A DNA stretch of 64,000 bases from Agromyces agglutinans (GTDB taxonomy: Bacteria; Actinomycetota; Actinomycetes; Actinomycetales; Microbacteriaceae): positions 124,001 to 188,000 of the forward strand of contig NZ_WJIF01000003.1 in assembly GCF_009647605.1 (NCBI RefSeq), read 5' to 3'. Under the pieces are notes generated by a model. The model saw only the letters and a list, made by a program, of their open reading frames with translations, was not told the DNA's origin and made no database searches. The position numbers and the translations under genes were made by a program. Below are positions 12,908 to 52,742 of the stretch, one piece after another (the first letter of the stretch is position 1; each line of letters begins with the position of its first letter).

Positions 12908-12938
12908 GTAGATGACGAAATGTCGTAGGGTTTTCGGC

Positions 12939-14645
12939 ATGACTTCGGAATGGTGGCGCACCGCCGCGATCTACCAGATCTACCCGCGCTCCTTCGCCGA
13001 CGCGAACGGCGACGGCATGGGCGACCTCGCCGGCATCACCTCGCGCCTCGGCTCGCTCGAGGCGCTCGGCGTCGACGCGATCTGGCTCTCGCCCTTCTAC
13101 ACCTCCCCCCAGAAGGACGCCGGCTACGACGTCGCGGACTACTGCGACGTCGACCCGCGCTTCGGCACCCTCGCCGACTTCGACGCGATGGTCGCCGAGG
13201 CGCATGCCCGAGGCATCCGGGTCATCGTCGACCTCGTACCGAACCACTCCTCCGACCAGCACTTGTGGTTCCAGGAGGCGCTCGCCGCCGCGCCCGGCAG
13301 CGCCGCCCGCGCGCGCTACCTGTTCCGCGACGGCCGCGGCGACGCCGGCGAGCTGCCGCCGAACAACTGGGAGTCCGTCTTCGGCGGCCCCGCATGGACC
13401 CGCAGCCTCGACGCCGAGGGCCGGCCCGGCCAGTGGTACCTGCACCTGTTCGACAGCTCGCAGCCCGACTTCGACTGGACCAACGAAGAGGTCCGCGAGG
13501 AGTTCCGGCGCATCCTGCGCTTCTGGCTCGACCGCGGCGTCGACGGCTTCCGCGTCGACGTGGCGCACGGCCTGATCAAGGCCGACGGCCTGCCCGACTG
13601 GACCCCCGCCGAGGGCGCGGGCAGCATGGGCGGCGCCGGCGGGGTCGGCGGCCACCCCGACACGCTCGGTGCAGAGGCCTCGGGCGTCGCGCTCGAACCC
13701 GCGATCAGCGAGGAGGAGGGCGACGGAGCGCCGTACTGGGCGCAGGAGGGCGTGCACGAGGTCTACCGCGACTGGCGGCGCCTGCTCGACGAGTACCCGG
13801 GCGAGCGCATCCTCGCGGCCGAGGCCTGGGTCGACCCGCTCTCGAAGGTCGCCAAGTGGGTGCGCCCCGACGAGATGCACCAGTCGTTCAACTTCGCGTA
13901 CCTCGAGACGCCGTGGGACGCCGACGCCCTGCGCACGGTCATCGACGAGTCGCTCGCGGCGTTCGGATCCGTCGGAGCGCCCTCGACCTGGGTGCTCTCG
14001 AACCACGATGTCGTCCGCCACGCCACGCGCCTCTCGGTGACGGCTGCGAACCCGCAGGGCCACGGCCTCGGGCCCCGGTCGAAGGGCATCCCGACCTACG
14101 AGGTCGGCCTGCGCCGCGCCCGGGCTGCCACGGCGCTCATGCTGGCGTTGCCCGGCTCCGCCTACCTCTACCAGGGCGAGGAGCTCGGCCTGCCCGAGGT
14201 CATCGACCTGCCCGACGACGCCCGCCAGGACCCGACCTGGTTCCGCACCGACGGCGAGCGCTACGGCCGCGACGGATGCCGCGTGCCGATCCCCTGGGAA
14301 TCCTCCGCGCCGTCGTACGGCTTCGGCCCGACGGACGCCTCGTGGCTCCCGCAGCCCGACTCGTGGGCCGAGCTCGCGCGCGACCGCCAGGAGGGCGTCG
14401 AGGGCTCGACCCTCTCGATGTACCAGGCCGCACTGCGCCTGCGGCGGTCGCTCTCGCTCGGGGCCGGCTCGCTCGAATGGCTCCACGTCGACGGCACGCT
14501 CGCCCTGCGCAACGGCGAGATCACCGTGGTCGCGAATACCGGCACCGAGCCGGTCGCGCTGCCCGCCGGCGACGTGCTGCTCGCCTCGGGCCCGCTCGAC
14601 GGCGACCGCCTCCCGGCCGACACCACGGTCTGGCTCCGCGCGTAG
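12939..14645 (+). CDS. GH13 alpha-glucosidase
   Basis: A 568-residue cytoplasmic enzyme that begins directly with the barrel (WWRTAAIYQIYPRSFAD). The GH13 regions are intact: DLVPNHSSD (about 98), GFRVDVAH with nucleophile D207, LAAEAWV with acid/base E295, and LSNHD with D357. The Gly/Ala-rich stretch at 225-240 lies in a variable loop. The enzyme should release glucose from the non-reducing ends of imported maltodextrins. I chose the ATG at 12939, the usual family start, over an ATG nine codons upstream. It is divergent from malE across about 275 bp that hold a promoter and two operators, so it is probably induced together with the transporter. Trehalose synthase or oligo-1,6-glucosidase activity cannot be excluded. 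Confidence 0.93.
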   Translation: MTSEWWRTAAIYQIYPRSFADANGDGMGDLAGITSRLGSLEALGVDAIWLSPFYTSPQKDAGYDVADYCDVDPRFGTLADFDAMVAEAHARGIRVIVDLVPNHSSDQHLWFQEALAAAPGSAARARYLFRDGRGDAGELPPNNWESVFGGPAWTRSLDAEGRPGQWYLHLFDSSQPDFDWTNEEVREEFRRILRFWLDRGVDGFRVDVAHGLIKADGLPDWTPAEGAGSMGGAGGVGGHPDTLGAEASGVALEPAISEEEGDGAPYWAQEGVHEVYRDWRRLLDEYPGERILAAEAWVDPLSKVAKWVRPDEMHQSFNFAYLETPWDADALRTVIDESLAAFGSVGAPSTWVLSNHDVVRHATRLSVTAANPQGHGLGPRSKGIPTYEVGLRRARAATALMLALPGSAYLYQGEELGLPEVIDLPDDARQDPTWFRTDGERYGRDGCRVPIPWESSAPSYGFGPTDASWLPQPDSWAELARDRQEGVEGSTLSMYQAALRLRRSLSLGAGSLEWLHVDGTLALRNGEITVVANTGTEPVALPAGDVLLASGPLDGDRLPADTTVWLRA

Positions 14646-14698: not shown

Positions 14699-14770
14699 TC
14701 GAGTTCGCAGGATGAGGCTCGTCACACCGTCGAATGCGACCGTATGACGCGTCTCATCCTGCGAACTCGA
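14699..14770. repeat. left palindrome flanking the DUF559 gene
   Basis: Perfect 18-bp arms TCGAGTTCGCAGGATGAG and CTCATCCTGCGAACTCGA surround a 36-base centre that itself contains a small GTCG-AATG-CGAC hairpin. It lies 34 bp beyond the stop of the DUF559 gene. Positions 14701-14770 align without gaps to 15825-15894 at 50 of 70 bases. Confidence 0.85.
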
Positions 14771-14804
14771 GAGACGCCCCATCGCTCGCTCAGAACCCGG
14801 GGAG

Positions 14805-15752
14805 TCAGAACCCGGGATCGATGTGGCCGCGAGCCACGGACACACCGGCGGCGCGCGGTCGCGCGGTCGCGCGCACGCCCCACCGGTGCTCGCCGCGCCG
14901 AACCAGCTCGAGGATGCCCTCCTGCACCGAATCCCACTCGGACACGACCATCTCGTAGCTCAGCCTGAGCACCAGGTAGCCGCCCATGACCAGCTCGAAG
15001 TCGCGGCGCCGATCCCGTTCGAACTCCGGGCCGGTGTGGAATCCAGCGCCATCGATCTCGATCACCAGCCGCTCGCCGACGAGTACGTCGATCCGACCCA
15101 CTCCGTCGATGGTCACCTGCGTCCGGTGGCGGATGCGGTGTCCGAGCAGCAGCATCCGCACGATCGTCTCCGTCCCCGACTGGCATCCGGCGTCCGCGAG
15201 GTCGACGATCGATCGTCTCGTGGGGACGAGCAGGGTTCGAAGCTCGGCGAGTCCGGCCGTGTCGAGCTGCCGTTCCGCCAGTGCCGAGTCGACCGCGATG
15301 TGCGCGTCGAGCCGCGGAGCGCAGGCGGCCAGCTCGGCGAGGGCGAGCGCGAGCGGATCCCGGGCTCCGATCACACCGTCCACCGTGCGGTAGTGCACGC
15401 AGACCCGATCGCGAGCGACGTCCAGCCGCCTCCCGGAGCCGTCGGGCGCCCGCAACCGGCTCGCGGTGCGCGGCACCCGGACGTGCAGCGTCGCTTCCCG
15501 CCGCGTCCACACGCCCTCCAGGCGAGCCACGGATGCCCCGGTCAGGCTGCCACCGACCCTGACCGCGCGCACGACGTCGGGCGGAGCATCCGGCACCGCG
15601 AACCAGCGCTGTCGGACCTGGACGATCGCTCCCGCGCTGCGGGCGCGCGTCACCGCCTGACGGGGGATGCCGTATGCGTCGAGATGACGGTACGCGAGGG
15701 CACCGCCGTGCGAACGGATGCATCGGGCGACGGCATTCGGGCTGTGGGACAT
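14805..15752 (-). CDS. DUF559-type endonuclease-like protein
   Basis: A 315-residue protein. The N-terminal half (about 1-190) resembles the winged-helix AbiEi-like region often fused to DUF559, with ALAYRHLDAYGIPRQAV and VRQRWFAVPDAP. The C-terminal ~120 residues match the Vsr/DUF559 PD-(D/E)xK nuclease pattern: IDVLVGERLVIEIDGAGFH, then a D-x3-RD segment and YLVLRLSYEMV, with the acidic pair and His expected at the active site. Such genes occur in several copies per genome in Microbacteriaceae. I chose the start at 15752, since the upstream extension overlaps a GC-rich leader without a ribosome binding site. It is bracketed by two related palindromes, which suggests a mobile or self-propagating unit. 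The biochemical role of the family is not established. Confidence 0.78.
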   Translation of the reverse strand: MSHSPNAVARCIRSHGGALAYRHLDAYGIPRQAVTRARSAGAIVQVRQRWFAVPDAPPDVVRAVRVGGSLTGASVARLEGVWTRREATLHVRVPRTASRLRAPDGSGRRLDVARDRVCVHYRTVDGVIGARDPLALALAELAACAPRLDAHIAVDSALAERQLDTAGLAELRTLLVPTRRSIVDLADAGCQSGTETIVRMLLLGHRIRHRTQVTIDGVGRIDVLVGERLVIEIDGAGFHTGPEFERDRRRDFELVMGGYLVLRLSYEMVVSEWDSVQEGILELVRRGEHRWGVRATARPRAAGVSVARGHIDPGF

Positions 15753-15824
15753 CCCAGCAGTGTGCCCAGCCGGCCCCATCGGTGCCGGCAGCCTGTGGAG
15801 AAAGCCGCGCCTGCCGGTCCGCAT

Positions 15825-15894
15825 GAATTCACAGGACGAGACGGATCAGACCGCCGTATGCGTCGGTATGGCCCGGCGCATCCTGTTTACTCGC
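15825..15894. repeat. right palindrome flanking the DUF559 gene
   Basis: A degenerate palindrome beginning GAATTCACAGGACGAG and ending CATCCTGTTTACTCG. It aligns base for base to 14701-14770 (50 of 70 identical). It starts 72 bp upstream of the DUF559 start codon, so the two copies bracket the gene closely. The outer arms pair at about 10 of 14 positions here, against 18 of 18 in the left copy. Confidence 0.75.
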
Positions 15895-15944: not shown

Positions 15945-17732
15945 CTAGTTCGTGTACTCGTAGAGCCACTCGAGCGGGTCGACCCACTCGCCGTCGATGC
16001 CGCCGATGCGGATCTCGAAGTGCAGGTGGGGCCCGGTCGACATGCCGGTGTTGCCGGTGTTGCCGATCACGTCGCCGACGTGCACCGTGTCGCCGACCTC
16101 GAAGCGGCGGGTGTCGTACTGCATGTGCGCGTACACGCTCGTGACGACCTGCCCGTCGATGACGTGGTCGATCATCGTCACGACGCCGAGCGATCCGCCC
16201 GAGTCGGTCGAGTTGGAGACGACGCCGTCGGCGATGGCCTGGATCTCGGCGCCGTAGCCGGGGTTGAAGTCCTGGCCGTGGTGATCCTCGGAGCATCCGG
16301 CGCAGTCGCGGTAGCCGAACCGGTCGCCGATGTGCACGCCGACCGCGAACGGCCACTGGATCGTGCCGAGCGGGTTATTGGTGAATGTCGCCTCGGGGCG
16401 GATGCCCGCCGCGGCCGCGTATTCAGCGATCGTCTGGTGCTGGTAGCCCTCGCGGACGACGTTCGGCGAGGCGATCGCATCGCCGTCGATCGTGACCCGC
16501 TGTCCGGGCCCGTCGGCGCGGTCGGCGGCGGCGAGCGCGAGCGCCTGCACGTCTTCGGCGGACAGCAGGGAGAGCGCCGGCACGGAGGTCGCGAGCGCCA
16601 GCGTCGCCGCGAAACCCATGGCCACGACGGCGCGCAGCCCGCGCCGGCGGCGGGTGACGATCGTCTTCGGCCGCGGCGGCACGCTGACGGGCGCCTCGAC
16701 CGGCCGGCGACGGGCCCGGTCGGCAGGCCGCCCTGCGTCGGTCGCCCGCGCGGGCCCGCCGTTCCGGCGCCCGCGTGACGCTTCGGAGCGACGGGATGCC
16801 TCTGCGCCTCGGGCCGCCTCGGAGCGACGGGATGCCTCTGCGCCTCGGGCCGCCTCGGAGCGACGGGATGCCTCTGCGCCTCGGGCCGCCTCGGCGGCTG
16901 CTCCTCCGTCACGGCGAGCGGATGCCTCGGCGGGGGCGACGTCGTCGAACGCGAGGCGGGGCCGCTGCGCGGCCGCACCCAGGAGGACCGCGAATTCCGC
17001 GGACGCGTCCGCGATCGACGGATCGGCGAGGGGCACCGGTGCCTCGCCGCCGGGGGCCGCGGCGGCGAGCTGGTGTCGGAGGTCGGTTCGCGGGACGGAT
17101 GCCTGGTTCCGCGGGGCGGGTGCCGGCGGTACCGCGGCCGCGGCGTCGCGACGGCCGCGGAAACGTGCGGCCGGATGACCGTCGGCAGCGTCGGCCGTGA
17201 GATCTCCGAAGAGCGCGTCGAAGCCCGACTCGGGCTCCGCGGGGGCCTGCCGTCGGACGGGTGCTTGCGCCTGCGGCTGTTCGCGGCGCGGCTGCCGGTG
17301 CTCCTGCGAAGGCTGCTGGACCGGAGGCTGCGGCGGCGCCTGGCGCGGAGCCTGCTGCTGCGGCTGCGGCTGCTGCGCCTGCTGCCACGACGGCGTCGGA
17401 GGGAGGTGCTGCGCCGGCACCGACTGCGCCGGCACCGACTGCGCAGGCGCCGACGGCGCCTGTTGCGCCGGCTGCGGCCACGTCTGTCGGGGCGCCTGCC
17501 CCTGGCGCGCCTGCGGCGCCTGACCGCCCCCTGCCGGCCACGCGTACTCGGCCGGCATCGACCCGGCGGCGGCCGCGGCCGCCTCCCGTTCCCGGAGTTC
17601 GCGTCGTGTCAGGGGTCGCTCGGCACGCTCAGCATGCTGAGTGCCTGGCGCAGAACCGTCGGGCACGAGGGGGGACTCGGGCACGTAGGGGACCTTCGGC
17701 GTAGGGGATGGACCGGACGGGGAGGTGTGCAT
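15945..17732 (-). CDS. M23-family metallopeptidase with long low-complexity N-terminus
   Basis: A 595-residue protein. The first ~370 residues are disordered, rich in Pro, Gln, Ala and Arg, and include three exact 12-residue repeats (containing GAEASRRSEAAR). A basic RRRRGLRAVVAMGF segment and one hydrophobic helix follow, so the N-terminus is probably cytoplasmic and the C-terminus outside. The final ~150 residues are a LytM/M23 peptidase domain with metal motifs H-x3-D (HHGQDFNPG) and HLHFEI. Such enzymes cut peptidoglycan cross-bridges or act as division-linked activators. The start at 17732 is the first codon with an AGGG-type site. The repeats lie in the part predicted to be inside the cell, which is unusual for a cell-wall hydrolase. 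Confidence 0.85.
   Translation of the reverse strand: MHTSPSGPSPTPKVPYVPESPLVPDGSAPGTQHAERAERPLTRRELREREAAAAAAGSMPAEYAWPAGGGQAPQARQGQAPRQTWPQPAQQAPSAPAQSVPAQSVPAQHLPPTPSWQQAQQPQPQQQAPRQAPPQPPVQQPSQEHRQPRREQPQAQAPVRRQAPAEPESGFDALFGDLTADAADGHPAARFRGRRDAAAAVPPAPAPRNQASVPRTDLRHQLAAAAPGGEAPVPLADPSIADASAEFAVLLGAAAQRPRLAFDDVAPAEASARRDGGAAAEAARGAEASRRSEAARGAEASRRSEAARGAEASRRSEASRGRRNGGPARATDAGRPADRARRRPVEAPVSVPPRPKTIVTRRRRGLRAVVAMGFAATLALATSVPALSLLSAEDVQALALAAADRADGPGQRVTIDGDAIASPNVVREGYQHQTIAEYAAAAGIRPEATFTNNPLGTIQWPFAVGVHIGDRFGYRDCAGCSEDHHGQDFNPGYGAEIQAIADGVVSNSTDSGGSLGVVTMIDHVIDGQVVTSVYAHMQYDTRRFEVGDTVHVGDVIGNTGNTGMSTGPHLHFEIRIGGIDGEWVDPLEWLYEYTN
16783..16890. repeat. three tandem 36-bp repeats inside the M23 gene
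   Basis: Three copies of a 36-bp unit starting TCGGAGCGACGGGATGCC, at 16783, 16819 and 16855. They appear identical at the DNA level and stay in frame, each adding 12 residues. Identity down to third codon positions points to recent slippage or unequal crossing-over. Confidence 0.9.
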
Positions 17733-17859
17733 CCCGACGCCCTCGCCGAGATAACGGATCGGTAAAGCGTACCCCGAGGCATCCGTTCGCGCCACGTGAC
17801 ACCGTCGATCCCCGCCGTGCCGCGGCGCTGGGCCTACGGATCGCGTGGATCCCGGTCGA

Positions 17860-18693
17860 TCAGGCCGGTGCGCCGGCCGCGGCGAGCGCCGCGCCGAGCT
17901 CCTCGTGCAACCCGGCCGGTGCCGCGAGGAGGAACTCGCCGGTCGGCGCGCCGCCGCGCGGGCCCGTCACGATCGCGCCGGCCTCGCGGGCGATGAGGGC
18001 GCCCGCGGCGTGGTCCCAGGGGCCCAGCCCGACCTCGTAGTACGCGTCGAGGCGCCCGGCGGCGACGGCGCACAGGTCGAGTGCGCACGATCCGAGCCGG
18101 CGCAGGTCGCGGATGCGCACGAGGAGGTCGGCCACGATCCGCGCCTGCCCCTCGCGGCGTTCGATCGAGTAGGCGAATCCGGTGCCGACGAGCGCGCGAT
18201 CGAGTGCGACGCTCGCGTTCACGTGCAACGGCTCGCCGCCGAGGCGGGCGCCGCCGCCGAGGGATGCCTCGAACACCTCGCCCGAGACGGGGTTCACGAC
18301 GACGCCGGCGACCGCGGTCCACGCGTCGGGTGCCGGCGGTCCCTGCACGACCGCGATGCTGATCGACCACTGCGGGATGCCGTAGAGGAAGTTCACGGTG
18401 CCGTCGATCGGATCGACGACCCAGGTCAGCCCGCTCGTGCCGGTCTGCGCCGCTCCTCCCTCCTCGCCGAGGATGCCGTCGTCGGGTCGCGCCTCGAGGA
18501 TCAGCCGGCGGATGAGCGCCTCCGTCGAGCGGTCGACGGCCGTGACGATGTCGATCGGCGTCGACTTCGTCGCCTCGACGCTCACGCCCTTTCGCCGCTC
18601 CTCGAGCGCGAAGGCGCCGGCGCGCACCGCGATGTCGCGGGCGAGGGCGAGCAGCGATTCGGGCGTCGGTACGGATGCTTCGGCGTCGGTCAT
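17860..18693 (-). CDS. inositol monophosphatase family phosphatase
   Basis: A 277-residue soluble enzyme with all the metal-dependent phosphatase signatures of the family: LGEEGG (about 79), WVVDPIDGTVNF (about 95) and, near the C-terminus, WDHAAGALIAREAGA. It dephosphorylates inositol-1-phosphate or a related sugar phosphate (histidinol-phosphate or PAP phosphatases share the fold) with Mg2+ at the DPIDG aspartates. In actinobacteria such enzymes can feed inositol to phosphatidylinositol or mycothiol. The start ATG overlaps the stop of the SRPBCC gene by 4 bases (ATGA), so the two are co-translated. The exact substrate is not determined by sequence. Confidence 0.88.
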   Translation of the reverse strand: MTDAEASVPTPESLLALARDIAVRAGAFALEERRKGVSVEATKSTPIDIVTAVDRSTEALIRRLILEARPDDGILGEEGGAAQTGTSGLTWVVDPIDGTVNFLYGIPQWSISIAVVQGPPAPDAWTAVAGVVVNPVSGEVFEASLGGGARLGGEPLHVNASVALDRALVGTGFAYSIERREGQARIVADLLVRIRDLRRLGSCALDLCAVAAGRLDAYYEVGLGPWDHAAGALIAREAGAIVTGPRGGAPTGEFLLAAPAGLHEELGAALAAAGAPA

Positions 18694-19187
18694 GCCCCAA
18701 CGCTATCGGCGTCGTCGGCGCCGGCCCCGGGCAGGCGATGCGCCGCGGCCCGGAGGTGCGCGTTCCGGCGTTCGATGAGCCGGTGCAGGTACGGACGCAG
18801 CACGAGCTCGGCGAGGCGGCCGAGTGGTCCGAGCGGTGCGGTGAACGACACCCGGTCGGTCATGTTCGTGCCGTCGCCGTCGGCGACGCACTCGTGCTCG
18901 TGCCGGAACGCGGCGAACGGTCCGCGTACCTGCTCGTCGACGAACGAGCGGGGCGGCGACATCTCGGTGATCCGGCTCGTGAGCCGCAACGGCAGGCCGA
19001 AGTGCCAGGCGCGCCAGGTGACCTCCTGTCCCTCGCCGATGAGTCCCGAGGTCACGCCGCCGACGGCGCGCTCACGCGTGCGCGCCATCGAGTCGAGGTG
19101 GAGGTCGATGCTGCGGGCGAGGTCGAACGCGTCCGGCACGGGAACGGGCAGTCGCGTGCGGCACTCGAAGGACGCGGTCACGGGCAC
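18690..19187 (-). CDS. SRPBCC-fold (polyketide cyclase/START-like) protein
   Basis: A 165-residue protein with a typical SRPBCC opening (FECRTRLPVPVPDAFDLARSIDLHL), a central RSFVDEQVRGPFAAFRHEHEC strand-turn-strand, and a long C-terminal helix (LAELVLRPYLHRLIERRNAHLRAA). This is the 'ligand-binding SRPBCC domain' pattern common in actinobacteria; the ligand is unknown. A GTG start at 19187 gives the full first strand; a GTG two codons later is equally possible. It leads the two-gene unit with the inositol-phosphatase family gene through a 4-base overlap. Confidence 0.78.
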   Translation of the reverse strand: MPVTASFECRTRLPVPVPDAFDLARSIDLHLDSMARTRERAVGGVTSGLIGEGQEVTWRAWHFGLPLRLTSRITEMSPPRSFVDEQVRGPFAAFRHEHECVADGDGTNMTDRVSFTAPLGPLGRLAELVLRPYLHRLIERRNAHLRAAAHRLPGAGADDADSVGA

Positions 19188-19251
19188 AGGCTATCCGCCG
19201 GCCTCGTGGTCCGCCCCGCAGCCGCCGCGGCCGGGAAGCTGGCATGCTGGG

Positions 19252-19569
19252 ATGGTGGGCATCCTCACCTGGAACTTCATTCGCACGGTCGAGATCGAGG
19301 ACCGTCCGCTCGCCCATCTGCGGAGCGTGGTCTTCGCGAAGCTGCGGCGCGGCGAGGCGTTCTCGTACTCGTGGGAGACGCCGCTCGAGCAGGGCAGCGG
19401 CCGTCACTCGATCTGGTTCAGCCCCGACGTGCCGGTGACGTTCGAGTTCTTCGACGGGCGGGACATCCCGCTGAACCCGCGCTGGATCCGGGAGCTCACG
19501 AAGGCGGCGAACTCCCCGGGCGGGCTCGTGCTCGTTCCCGAGCCGGAATCGAAGCCCGCGTCCGACTGA
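19252..19569 (+). CDS. DUF7882-like small protein, paralogue A
   Basis: A 105-residue protein of a short family that I know from Microbacteriaceae (some entries carry the doubtful label 'ATP-dependent DNA ligase'). Shared landmarks with the copies at 19587 and 21166 are DR-x-LAH-x3-V-x2-AKLRR-x-E-x-F near residue 17-37, an isolated W-x2-P, an N-x2-W-x3-L helix, and a final VPEP. There are no Cys, no membrane helix and no catalytic motif. The ATG at 19252 is followed by GTG-GGC, and most relatives begin at that Met-Gly, so the true start may be 19255. The function is unknown. Confidence 0.72.
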   Translation: MVGILTWNFIRTVEIEDRPLAHLRSVVFAKLRRGEAFSYSWETPLEQGSGRHSIWFSPDVPVTFEFFDGRDIPLNPRWIRELTKAANSPGGLVLVPEPESKPASD

Positions 19570-19586
19570 CGGCGTCGACCGCCGGC

Positions 19587-19898
19587 TCAGCCCTCCGAGC
19601 CCGGTGGCTCGGGGACGATCGTGAGGCCTCCGGCCGAGTTCGCCGATCGGTTGAGCGCCTGCACCCACGCGGAGTTCAGCCGCGGCGCTCGACCGCCGAA
19701 GTACTCGAACGCGACCGGGATCGACGGCGACAACCAGACCGAGGTCCGGCCGAACCCGCTCGCCGACGAGGATTCCGTCCAGGTGAATGCGAACGGCTCG
19801 CCGCGACGGAGCTTGGCCCAGATGACCGCCTGCAGGTGCGCGAGCACGCGGTCGTCGAACGAGACGACCAGCTTGGAGTCGTAGGTGAGGGTGCCCAT
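19587..19898 (-). CDS. DUF7882-like small protein, paralogue B
   Basis: A 103-residue paralogue of the 19252 and 21166 proteins. It starts MGTLTYDSKLVVSFDDR and carries LAHLQAVIWAKLRRGEPF, SVWLSPSIPVAFEYF, the N-x2-W helix and a VPEP tail. The ATG at 19898 fits the family start; the long in-frame upstream extension is basic and unlike the family. It converges with paralogue A across 17 bases. No clear Shine-Dalgarno is seen, so translation may be leaderless or weak. The function is unknown. Confidence 0.72.
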   Translation of the reverse strand: MGTLTYDSKLVVSFDDRVLAHLQAVIWAKLRRGEPFAFTWTESSSASGFGRTSVWLSPSIPVAFEYFGGRAPRLNSAWVQALNRSANSAGGLTIVPEPPGSEG

Positions 19899-20074
19899 CA
19901 CGGGAAAGGATATCGGCTCCCGACCGACCGAGCGGTGCGGCGAGCGCGCGCCGTCGTCGGTGGCTGCGGCATCGCCGTCGGGGGGCACGGCGAGCGCGCG
20001 GCGCGGAGTATACGCCCCGGACCTGTGTCGGCAGGCGGATTGCACGAAGGGCTTGACAACGTGATTCTGGATGC

Positions 20075-20854
20075 ATGGAACCCGGTGCATCGAACCCGAC
20101 GACCGACGGATGGGTCGCCGAACTCCGGCGTGCCGTCGACCGCGGCGAGCTCGTCGCGTACTTCCAGCCCGAGTACGACCTGGCATCCGGCAGACCGGTC
20201 GCCTTCGAGGCGCTGTGCCGATGGTTGCATCCCGATCGGGGCGTGATCATGCCCGACCGGTTCATCCCCGTCGCCGAGGTCTCAGGCCTGCTGGGCGACC
20301 TTGGGCGCGCCATTCTCGACCAGTCGGGGCGCCGAGCCGCCGAATGGCACCGGCGCGGACTGCGAATGGGCATCGCGGTCAACATCTCGCCGTCGCAGCT
20401 TCGACCCGCCTTCGTCGAGGCCATGCTGAAGATCGTGCGCCGCCTCGACCTGCCCCGCTGGACGGTCACGGCCGAGATCACCGAGACGCCGGCGCTGCAG
20501 GAGTCCTGCGAGGAGTACCAGGCCATGCAGTCGCTGATCGATGGAGGCGTGGGCGTCTCGATCGACGACTTCGGCGCCGGCTTCACCTCGGTCGAGGGCA
20601 TGCGGAAGATCCCCTTCACCGAGGTGAAGATCGACCGCTCGCTGATGCGCGACGCGAGCCCTGCGGCCGACGAGCTCGTGGCGCGTTGCGTCGAGCTCGC
20701 GCGGGAGCGGTCGGCCGTCGTCGTGGCCGAGGGCGTCGAGACCTCGGCGGACCTCGAGCGCGCGAAGCGCTGGCGGTGCGATCGCGCGCAGGGGTACTAC
20801 TACTCGCCGGCCGTGGCCGCGGAAGACCTGGAGCCGCTGCTCGCCTCGGCCTGA
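20075..20854 (+). CDS. EAL-domain cyclic di-GMP phosphodiesterase
   Basis: A 259-residue protein that is essentially a stand-alone EAL domain with a 15-residue lead. The catalytic and metal residues are in place: the signature FEALCRW (E45), NISPSQL, EITET, DDFGAGF, KIDRS, AEGVET and QGYYYS. It should therefore cleave c-di-GMP to pGpG. There is no sensor domain or membrane segment, so its activity must be set by expression, a partner or localisation. The nearby bacteriophytochrome with an intact GGDEF domain (21519-23447) is the obvious antagonist. The ribosome binding site is weak. Confidence 0.9.
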   Translation: MEPGASNPTTDGWVAELRRAVDRGELVAYFQPEYDLASGRPVAFEALCRWLHPDRGVIMPDRFIPVAEVSGLLGDLGRAILDQSGRRAAEWHRRGLRMGIAVNISPSQLRPAFVEAMLKIVRRLDLPRWTVTAEITETPALQESCEEYQAMQSLIDGGVGVSIDDFGAGFTSVEGMRKIPFTEVKIDRSLMRDASPAADELVARCVELARERSAVVVAEGVETSADLERAKRWRCDRAQGYYYSPAVAAEDLEPLLASA

Positions 20855-20864
20855 GGCGCCCGGG

Positions 20865-21131
20865 TCAGAGCCCGAACTCCTCGTCGGCGCCGCCGGCCGA
20901 CTTGTCGTCGCCGCGATCGCCGAGGTCGCCGCCGACGTCGATCTGCGACCAGGTCACGGGCATGCCCGGCGAGAAGAGGATGTCGATGCCGGGGCCGCCG
21001 CGCAGCGGCGGGATGTTCACGTACCCGCCTCCGGCGCGGATGGCCTCGAGGATCTGCTGCTTGAGCCCGGTCACGGGGTCGGGCAGGAAGTAATCGCGTC
21101 CGTCTACGGTCAGTCGGTGTACGAGGGTCAC
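20865..21131 (-). CDS. small hypothetical protein
   Basis: An 88-residue soluble protein starting MTLVHRLTVDGRDYFL. A helix (DPVTGLKQQILEAIRAGGG) is followed by two beta strands (YVNIPPLRG, GIDILFSPGMPVTW) and an acidic Asp/Gly tail. I do not recognise a named family. It starts with GTG at 21131, 34 bp from and divergent to the third DUF7882-like paralogue, and converges with the EAL gene. Its small size and its place among the paralogues suggest it belongs to the same functional set, but nothing in the sequence shows the role. Confidence 0.6.
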   Translation of the reverse strand: MTLVHRLTVDGRDYFLPDPVTGLKQQILEAIRAGGGYVNIPPLRGGPGIDILFSPGMPVTWSQIDVGGDLGDRGDDKSAGGADEEFGL

Positions 21132-52605: not shown

Positions 52606-52742
52606 GCGATCTCCCCTCGATCCGCTCGCGAAGCTACCGCACGCTGCCGACACTTCGCCCCGCCGCGGTGCGGGTTGCGCGCGCCGGTGCGACGAGGACG
52701 TCGCACGGCGGCGAGCAACTCGCACCGCGGGCAGGCGGCACC

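Follow-up and report, generated by a model that had tools for sequence, protein, structure and literature searches.

A single nuclease-like gene of Agromyces agglutinans lies between two related palindromes, which raises the question of whether gene and palindromes together form a small mobile unit, as an earlier note on this DNA had suggested. The window is the whole 64,000-nucleotide stretch of contig NZ_WJIF01000003.1 that was analysed; G000 denotes its own genome, and other G numbers denote the genomes compared with it. The nuclease gene, the scattered copies of its palindrome and the different but likewise matching palindromes of related genes in other bacteria suggest a small spreading DNA element of a kind not described before. 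The features of the locus are:

12912..14645, + strand: left neighbour, an amylase-like gene (named by reading its translation), a conserved border of the cassette site
14699..14770, no strand: left palindrome, 72 bp, 34 bp past the 3' end of the nuclease gene
14805..15752, - strand: gene for an AbiEi-like/DUF559 (EDxHD, Vsr-like) protein, ATG at 15752, 315 aa
15825..15894, no strand: right palindrome, like the left at 50 of 70 bases, 72 bp upstream of the gene start
15945..17795, - strand: right neighbour, an M23-peptidase-like gene (named by reading its translation), a conserved border of the cassette site

The palindromes and the two-part protein

The left palindrome is paired at 31 of 36 positions, the highest paired share in the 60-79 bp class of the 64-kb window, and its outer 18 bp on either side are perfectly complementary, as the earlier note had read them. 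The right copy by itself is a weak palindrome, with 21 of 31 pairs at best, a value that several unrelated palindromes of the window equal or exceed; it owes its standing to its likeness to the left. That likeness, which had also been noticed, was borne out: an ungapped alignment of 14701-14770 with 15825-15894 has 50 identical bases in 70, whereas no unrelated stretch of the window scores above 36 of 70. This match, with the recurrence of the pairing in other species, led us to reject chance palindromes. The distances of 34 and 72 bp to a single gene likewise stood, the latter for the ATG listed above, in an open frame where a start is possible as far as 15824. Rfam, at gathering thresholds, found a single tRNA in the 64-kb window and no RNA family at the palindromes. 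Elsewhere in the window, 52663-52730 forms the second strongest palindrome of its size (27 of 34 pairs, sequence unrelated), and several of the small reading frames in 18690-21131, judged by eye, may be paralogues of one another, with a common stretch like LAHL..V.FAKLRRGE.

The protein matched Pfam DUF559 in its C-terminal half (30.5 bits, cut-off 20.6) and, below threshold, AbiEi_4 in its N-terminal half (20.8 bits, cut-off 25). Among 20 aligned relatives, 19 matched DUF559, 19 MTES_1575 and 12 AbiEi_4 at E ≤ 0.01; NCBIfam gave no match for the four proteins tried. PADLOC matched the N-terminal half weakly to AbiEi models, and the G010 protein to a homing-endonuclease model (E 0.002). A structure search with an AlphaFold model (mean pLDDT 90.1) returned only two matches at E ≤ 0.001, 6y8q, an AbiEi antitoxin (E 1.8e-5), and 3r3p, the I-Bth0305I catalytic domain (E 8.3e-4, TM 0.78 by target), with Vsr (1cw0) following at E 0.06, ranked under some low-TM Toxoplasma ribosome chains. 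The alignment of 20 relatives shows no variation at E195, D222, H239 and D247 and hardly any at D234, and in our reading these five are the probable EDxHD catalytic residues. On the predicted structure, the protein is an AbiEi-like DNA-binding half joined to a Vsr/EDxHD-type nuclease half, in agreement with the Vsr-like, two-part protein described before.

Many other DUF559 genes are likewise flanked by palindromes, which the earlier note had proposed to check. Of 29 scanned loci, 22 have one or more palindromes that reach the set score, in 8 cases as matching copies on both sides, and 7 have none; palindrome sequence differs by nuclease clade. The second DUF559 gene of G000 (G000:C7:61544) is bracketed by palindromes of different sequence, and those of the second gene in G002 (2038345) contain GCGGATATACGATCC. 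From 80 loci taken by protein similarity, 76 remained after 4 were dropped for short flanks. Left-right flank similarity reached at least 22 at 42 of the 76 compared with 7 of 122 other called genes at the same loci (Mann-Whitney p 1.5e-14), on a score that also counts non-palindromic repeats (for example at locus L234, score 148); strong palindromes on both sides occurred at 19 of 76 and 0 of 122. Without the 17 loci of the window's own site, the figures are 33/59 versus 7/103 (p 1.9e-11) and 18/59 versus 0/103. The 34 of 76 loci below the similarity mark, and the 7 of 29 that have no palindrome, count against the reading as an element. Within neighbourhoods of ~8-14 kb in nine relatives, the DUF559 gene is where most strong palindromes lie; G002, G014 and G015 have some elsewhere. 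A plasmid search returned three Tsukamurella records at <60% identity.

One intergenic gap, occupied, empty and exchanged

A search for the M23-like gene located it in 17 genomes of the genus. In 11 of them the gap between it and the amylase-like gene holds a DUF559 cassette, counting G009 and G015, where the DUF559 gene is broken, and G007, a partial reading at a contig break. In the other six (G001, G003, G005, G006, G008 and G016) the two genes stand 77-231 bp apart and the gap is empty. The empty sites sought in relatives therefore exist, and the gene is not without palindromes in its relatives at this locus, where cassettes of both type I and type II occur. The types were told apart by eye, and type III gathers the unlike sequences that remained.

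The trees cover 18 taxa with usable flank genes. One flank gene is missing in bracchium and in G007, and G009, G015, kandeliae and ramosus were left out because their matches were broken, partial or split. The DUF559 tree groups palindrome types I and II and the flank-gene tree does not, and in AU tests either tree was rejected when the data of the other were used (p 0.0007 and 3e-68). Since nuclease phylogeny agrees with palindrome type and disagrees with the phylogeny of the neighbouring genes, the gene and both palindromes were exchanged together. Three pairs illustrate this: G014 (type I) and luteolus (type II) share 94.6% of flank residues and 52.6% of DUF559 residues, italicus and lapidis 93.7% and 47.5%, and G002 and G010 90.0% and 53.7%. 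In the G014/luteolus alignment, the sequences part ~20 bp past the stop codon of the M23-like gene and are alike again from that of the amylase-like gene; with borders this sharp, the gene and both palindromes were replaced as one block, possibly by homologous recombination via the flanking genes.

Exchange of whole blocks at a single gap, together with divergence of the nuclease as fast as in those three pairs (47-54% compared with 90-95% for neighbours), would also suit a diversifying cassette, such as a defence or addiction gene, swapped by homologous recombination via its neighbours, with the palindromes as recognition or self-marking sites spread as a by-product; the weak PADLOC matches to AbiEi fit this as well. 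We consider it quite unlikely, since the G014/luteolus likeness breaks near the cassette edges and not within the neighbours, since no DUF1814 (AbiEii) toxin or methyltransferase was recognised beside the gene (neighbours judged by reading their translations as amylase-like and M23-like), and since it leaves the dispersal and solo insertion described below unexplained. Within the genus, the cassette has stayed in this one gap, and dispersal is mainly of the palindrome. With this correction, the interpretation given in the earlier note is supported.

Palindrome copies away from the gene

DNA search and the covariance model R1 together place the palindrome at nine sites in G000 (E ≤ 4e-6), seven of them away from the gene, so that the genome-wide search proposed earlier did find further copies; two partial matches (E 0.6-0.7) are left out of the nine. 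R1, the type I model, was made from seven G000 copies, including both window copies, and its scores in that genome are partly circular; R2, the type II model, was made from eight gene-flanking copies, and its solo matches are not. Over 25 same-genus genomes, R1 places number 9 in G000, 12 in G002, 16 in G004, 17 in G014 and 6 in G019, with fewer in G010 (4), G013 (2), G007 (2), G012 (1) and G015 (1), and there are none in the other 15 or in 15 more distant genomes. R2 places over 18 genomes number 12 in G011, 11 in G010, 9 in G009, 4 in G000, 3 each in G012 and G015, 2 in G002 and 1 in G014, with none in ten; G009, G010 and G011 are the genomes among these 18 with a type II cassette at the common gap. 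The six empty-gap genomes have neither type by R1 and R2.

Palindromes of types I and II are therefore commonest where the nuclease has the same type. Cognate copies are dispersed in G000, G002, G004, G014 and G019 (type I), in G009-G011 (type II) and in G026, a genome of another family of the same order, so that the scattered palindromes, which the earlier note allowed might prove unrelated to DUF559 genes, go with nuclease type. For G019, the R1 copies were known before its nuclease was looked for, and a DUF559 cassette with type I palindromes was then found in the same gap; G020, with no R1 copies, has a 55%-identical gene in the gap with a palindrome of other sequence on one side. The few type I copies in genomes with no type I cassette (G010, where one of the four also scores as type II, G012, G013 and G015) argue against a strict type rule, and we read them as fossils or cross-matches. 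Some weak R2 matches belong to further DUF559 genes, one of them in G000:C7 and two in G015:C20. Others lie away from such genes, for example at G000:C26:117293, which resembles the G000:C7 palindromes, and at G000:C12:301985, a solo palindrome resembling the A. lapidis type; no nuclease matching the latter was seen in G000, which also counts against the reading as an element.

G026 has 14 near-full-length copies of its bracketing 72-bp palindrome, the two beside the gene among them, plus one fragment. Ten copies inspected by eye stop being alike near the same 72 bp, with solo flanks that look unrelated and no consistent target-site duplication; the two gene-flanking copies have some further bases in common beyond the 72 bp.

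We compared G002 with G010 at six palindrome places and obtained readings from all but one. One clean solo empty site was found: at G010:2693514 a type II palindrome lies in an ~80 bp insertion absent from G002, the two genomes being too diverged there for the insertion ends to be placed. At a second place (G002:911700-912040), the gap that holds a type II copy in G010 holds in G002 a solo palindrome of another type, resembling those with GCGGATATACGATCC at its DUF559 gene at 2038345. Three clusters have palindromes side by side, both types being present in G010, and in two of them G002 has worn-looking type II copies, by eye, beside type I. Outside these six places, the site in G010 that was compared with G002:2814051 has extra DNA, and the flank matches of the solo copy G000:C21:4470 are adjacent in no other genome of 24 searched.

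Different palindrome types side by side at common sites are what one would expect if some unrelated transposase moved the palindromes as miniature elements, with DUF559 cassettes standing between them because palindromes are insertion hot spots. That account is highly improbable in our estimation: palindrome sequence tracks nuclease clade, matching bracketing copies recur in another family, and the Y1 family, the one searched for, has no member in G000 (PF01797; controls positive in 5 of 14). The same absence led us to reject a RAYT acting in trans.

Among 30 palindromes checked in five genomes, 19 were clear of called genes and 11 overlapped a called frame, mostly near its called start or end and once well within a long frame, counts that rest on a crude gene caller. 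Regulation offers another account, in which the palindromes would be operators, perhaps two-way terminators, of a self-repressing AbiEi-type regulator, the scattered copies further sites of it, and nothing would be mobile. AbiEi and Rv2827c are described as binding 23-bp inverted repeats upstream of their own genes and repressing them (PMC7319586), the right copy stands a short way upstream of the window gene, and palindromes often lie just past gene ends. However, several features look like spread and not like a regulon: copies on the downstream side, up to four copies in tandem, dispersed copies that are nearly identical while their flanks are unrelated, the solo empty site and the decayed-looking copies of the other type. 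A nuclease half with conserved catalytic-type residues would be superfluous; we regard regulation as unlikely.

The longest tandem run has four type I palindromes in a row at ~103-bp spacing (G014:C100, locus L082, 2387-2770). Short tandem repeats also adjoin solo palindromes in G000 (L006, C12, ~290300; L004, C13, ~285-330), their units resembling the outer end of the palindrome, possibly through hairpin slippage. Another palindromic tandem repeat family in G002 (L095, 175-404; GAGTCCCGCC...GCGGGTGCACCCGC) is unlike types I and II.

Proposed mechanism and comparison with known systems

The best reading, and on the present sequences a rather probable one, is a REP/RAYT-like partnership of palindrome and unrelated nuclease, forming a two-part selfish element. 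The autonomous part would be the cassette, one AbiEi-EDxHD gene bracketed by its own ~55-90 bp palindrome, and the non-autonomous part the same palindrome scattered alone. A protein dimer could read the two palindrome arms through its AbiEi halves, and its nuclease halves could nick or cleave either a nearby target or the palindrome itself, whether duplex, hairpin or cruciform; repair by the host might then copy the palindrome into new places and swap whole cassettes at a gap already occupied. Two points count against this: EDxHD nucleases are not known to join DNA, and no consistent target-site duplication was seen. The arms (~20 bp) and total length (~60-72 bp) of the palindrome fit the reports on AbiEi and on I-Bth0305I, a dimer with a target of nearly 60 bp (PMC3943268). 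The palindrome is the putative target of the protein, and its spread would follow from cutting and host repair.

The sequences show gene-palindrome pairing, type dependence, dispersal, block exchange, empty cassette sites and one solo empty site. No movement was observed in the sequence comparisons; binding, cutting and palindrome movement would be the work of the DUF559 protein rather than of another enzyme. Evenly poised, in our view, is the broader claim of a new class of mobile DNA, widespread in bacteria and unrelated to known transposases, in which an AbiEi-EDxHD nuclease would know a clade-specific palindrome, bracket itself with it, seed solo copies and displace rival cassettes at a common site, the loser's palindromes becoming fossils. 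Small dispersed palindromes with no known mobiliser are a standing puzzle, and here a nuclease of homing-endonuclease fold appears as a partner. If true, this would bring a new class of enzyme to the spread of small repeats, assign a function to one set of DUF559/AbiEi genes and supply naturally varied pairs of protein and palindrome whose comparison could reveal specificity.

The earlier note knew of no described system of this kind, and the portions available of the open-licence PMC literature (on DUF559, AbiEi with DUF559, MTES_1575, palindromes, REP/RAYT and Microbacteriaceae; subscription papers and preprints lay outside this scope) give no account of a nuclease-palindrome pairing. Nearest in layout, as that note had pointed out, are REP/RAYT (TnpA_REP) and the TIR-flanked TIRYT, reported as genes flanked by palindromes that are also dispersed between genes (PMC3733652). 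The window cassette is likewise one gene flanked by its own dispersed palindromes, but the REP/RAYT enzyme is a Y1/HUH transposase, whereas the AbiEi-EDxHD protein matches only DUF559, AbiEi_4 and MTES_1575. REP palindromes measure 20-40 bp with a GTAG end; the palindromes here are longer, and no GTAG end was noticed by eye on the copies inspected. We do not file the element as REP/RAYT because that defining transposase was tested for and not found.

The MTES_1575 Vsr-type REase domain, whose Pfam model most of the aligned relatives match, is described as belonging to a large protein that also has helicase, HEPN and transglutaminase regions (PMC3710099), with no mention of palindromes in the passages available. 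The AbiEi antitoxin of type IV toxin-antitoxin systems resembles the N-terminal half of the window protein in fold, inverted-repeat binding being a reported feature of AbiEi; the window protein differs in its fused nuclease half and in having no AbiEii-type toxin gene recognised next to it. With the EDxHD homing endonuclease I-Bth0305I, finally, it shares fold and catalytic-type residues, but its gene seems to lie outside any intron or intein, in an intergenic gap (empty in 6 of 17 genomes) between palindromes that stay whole.
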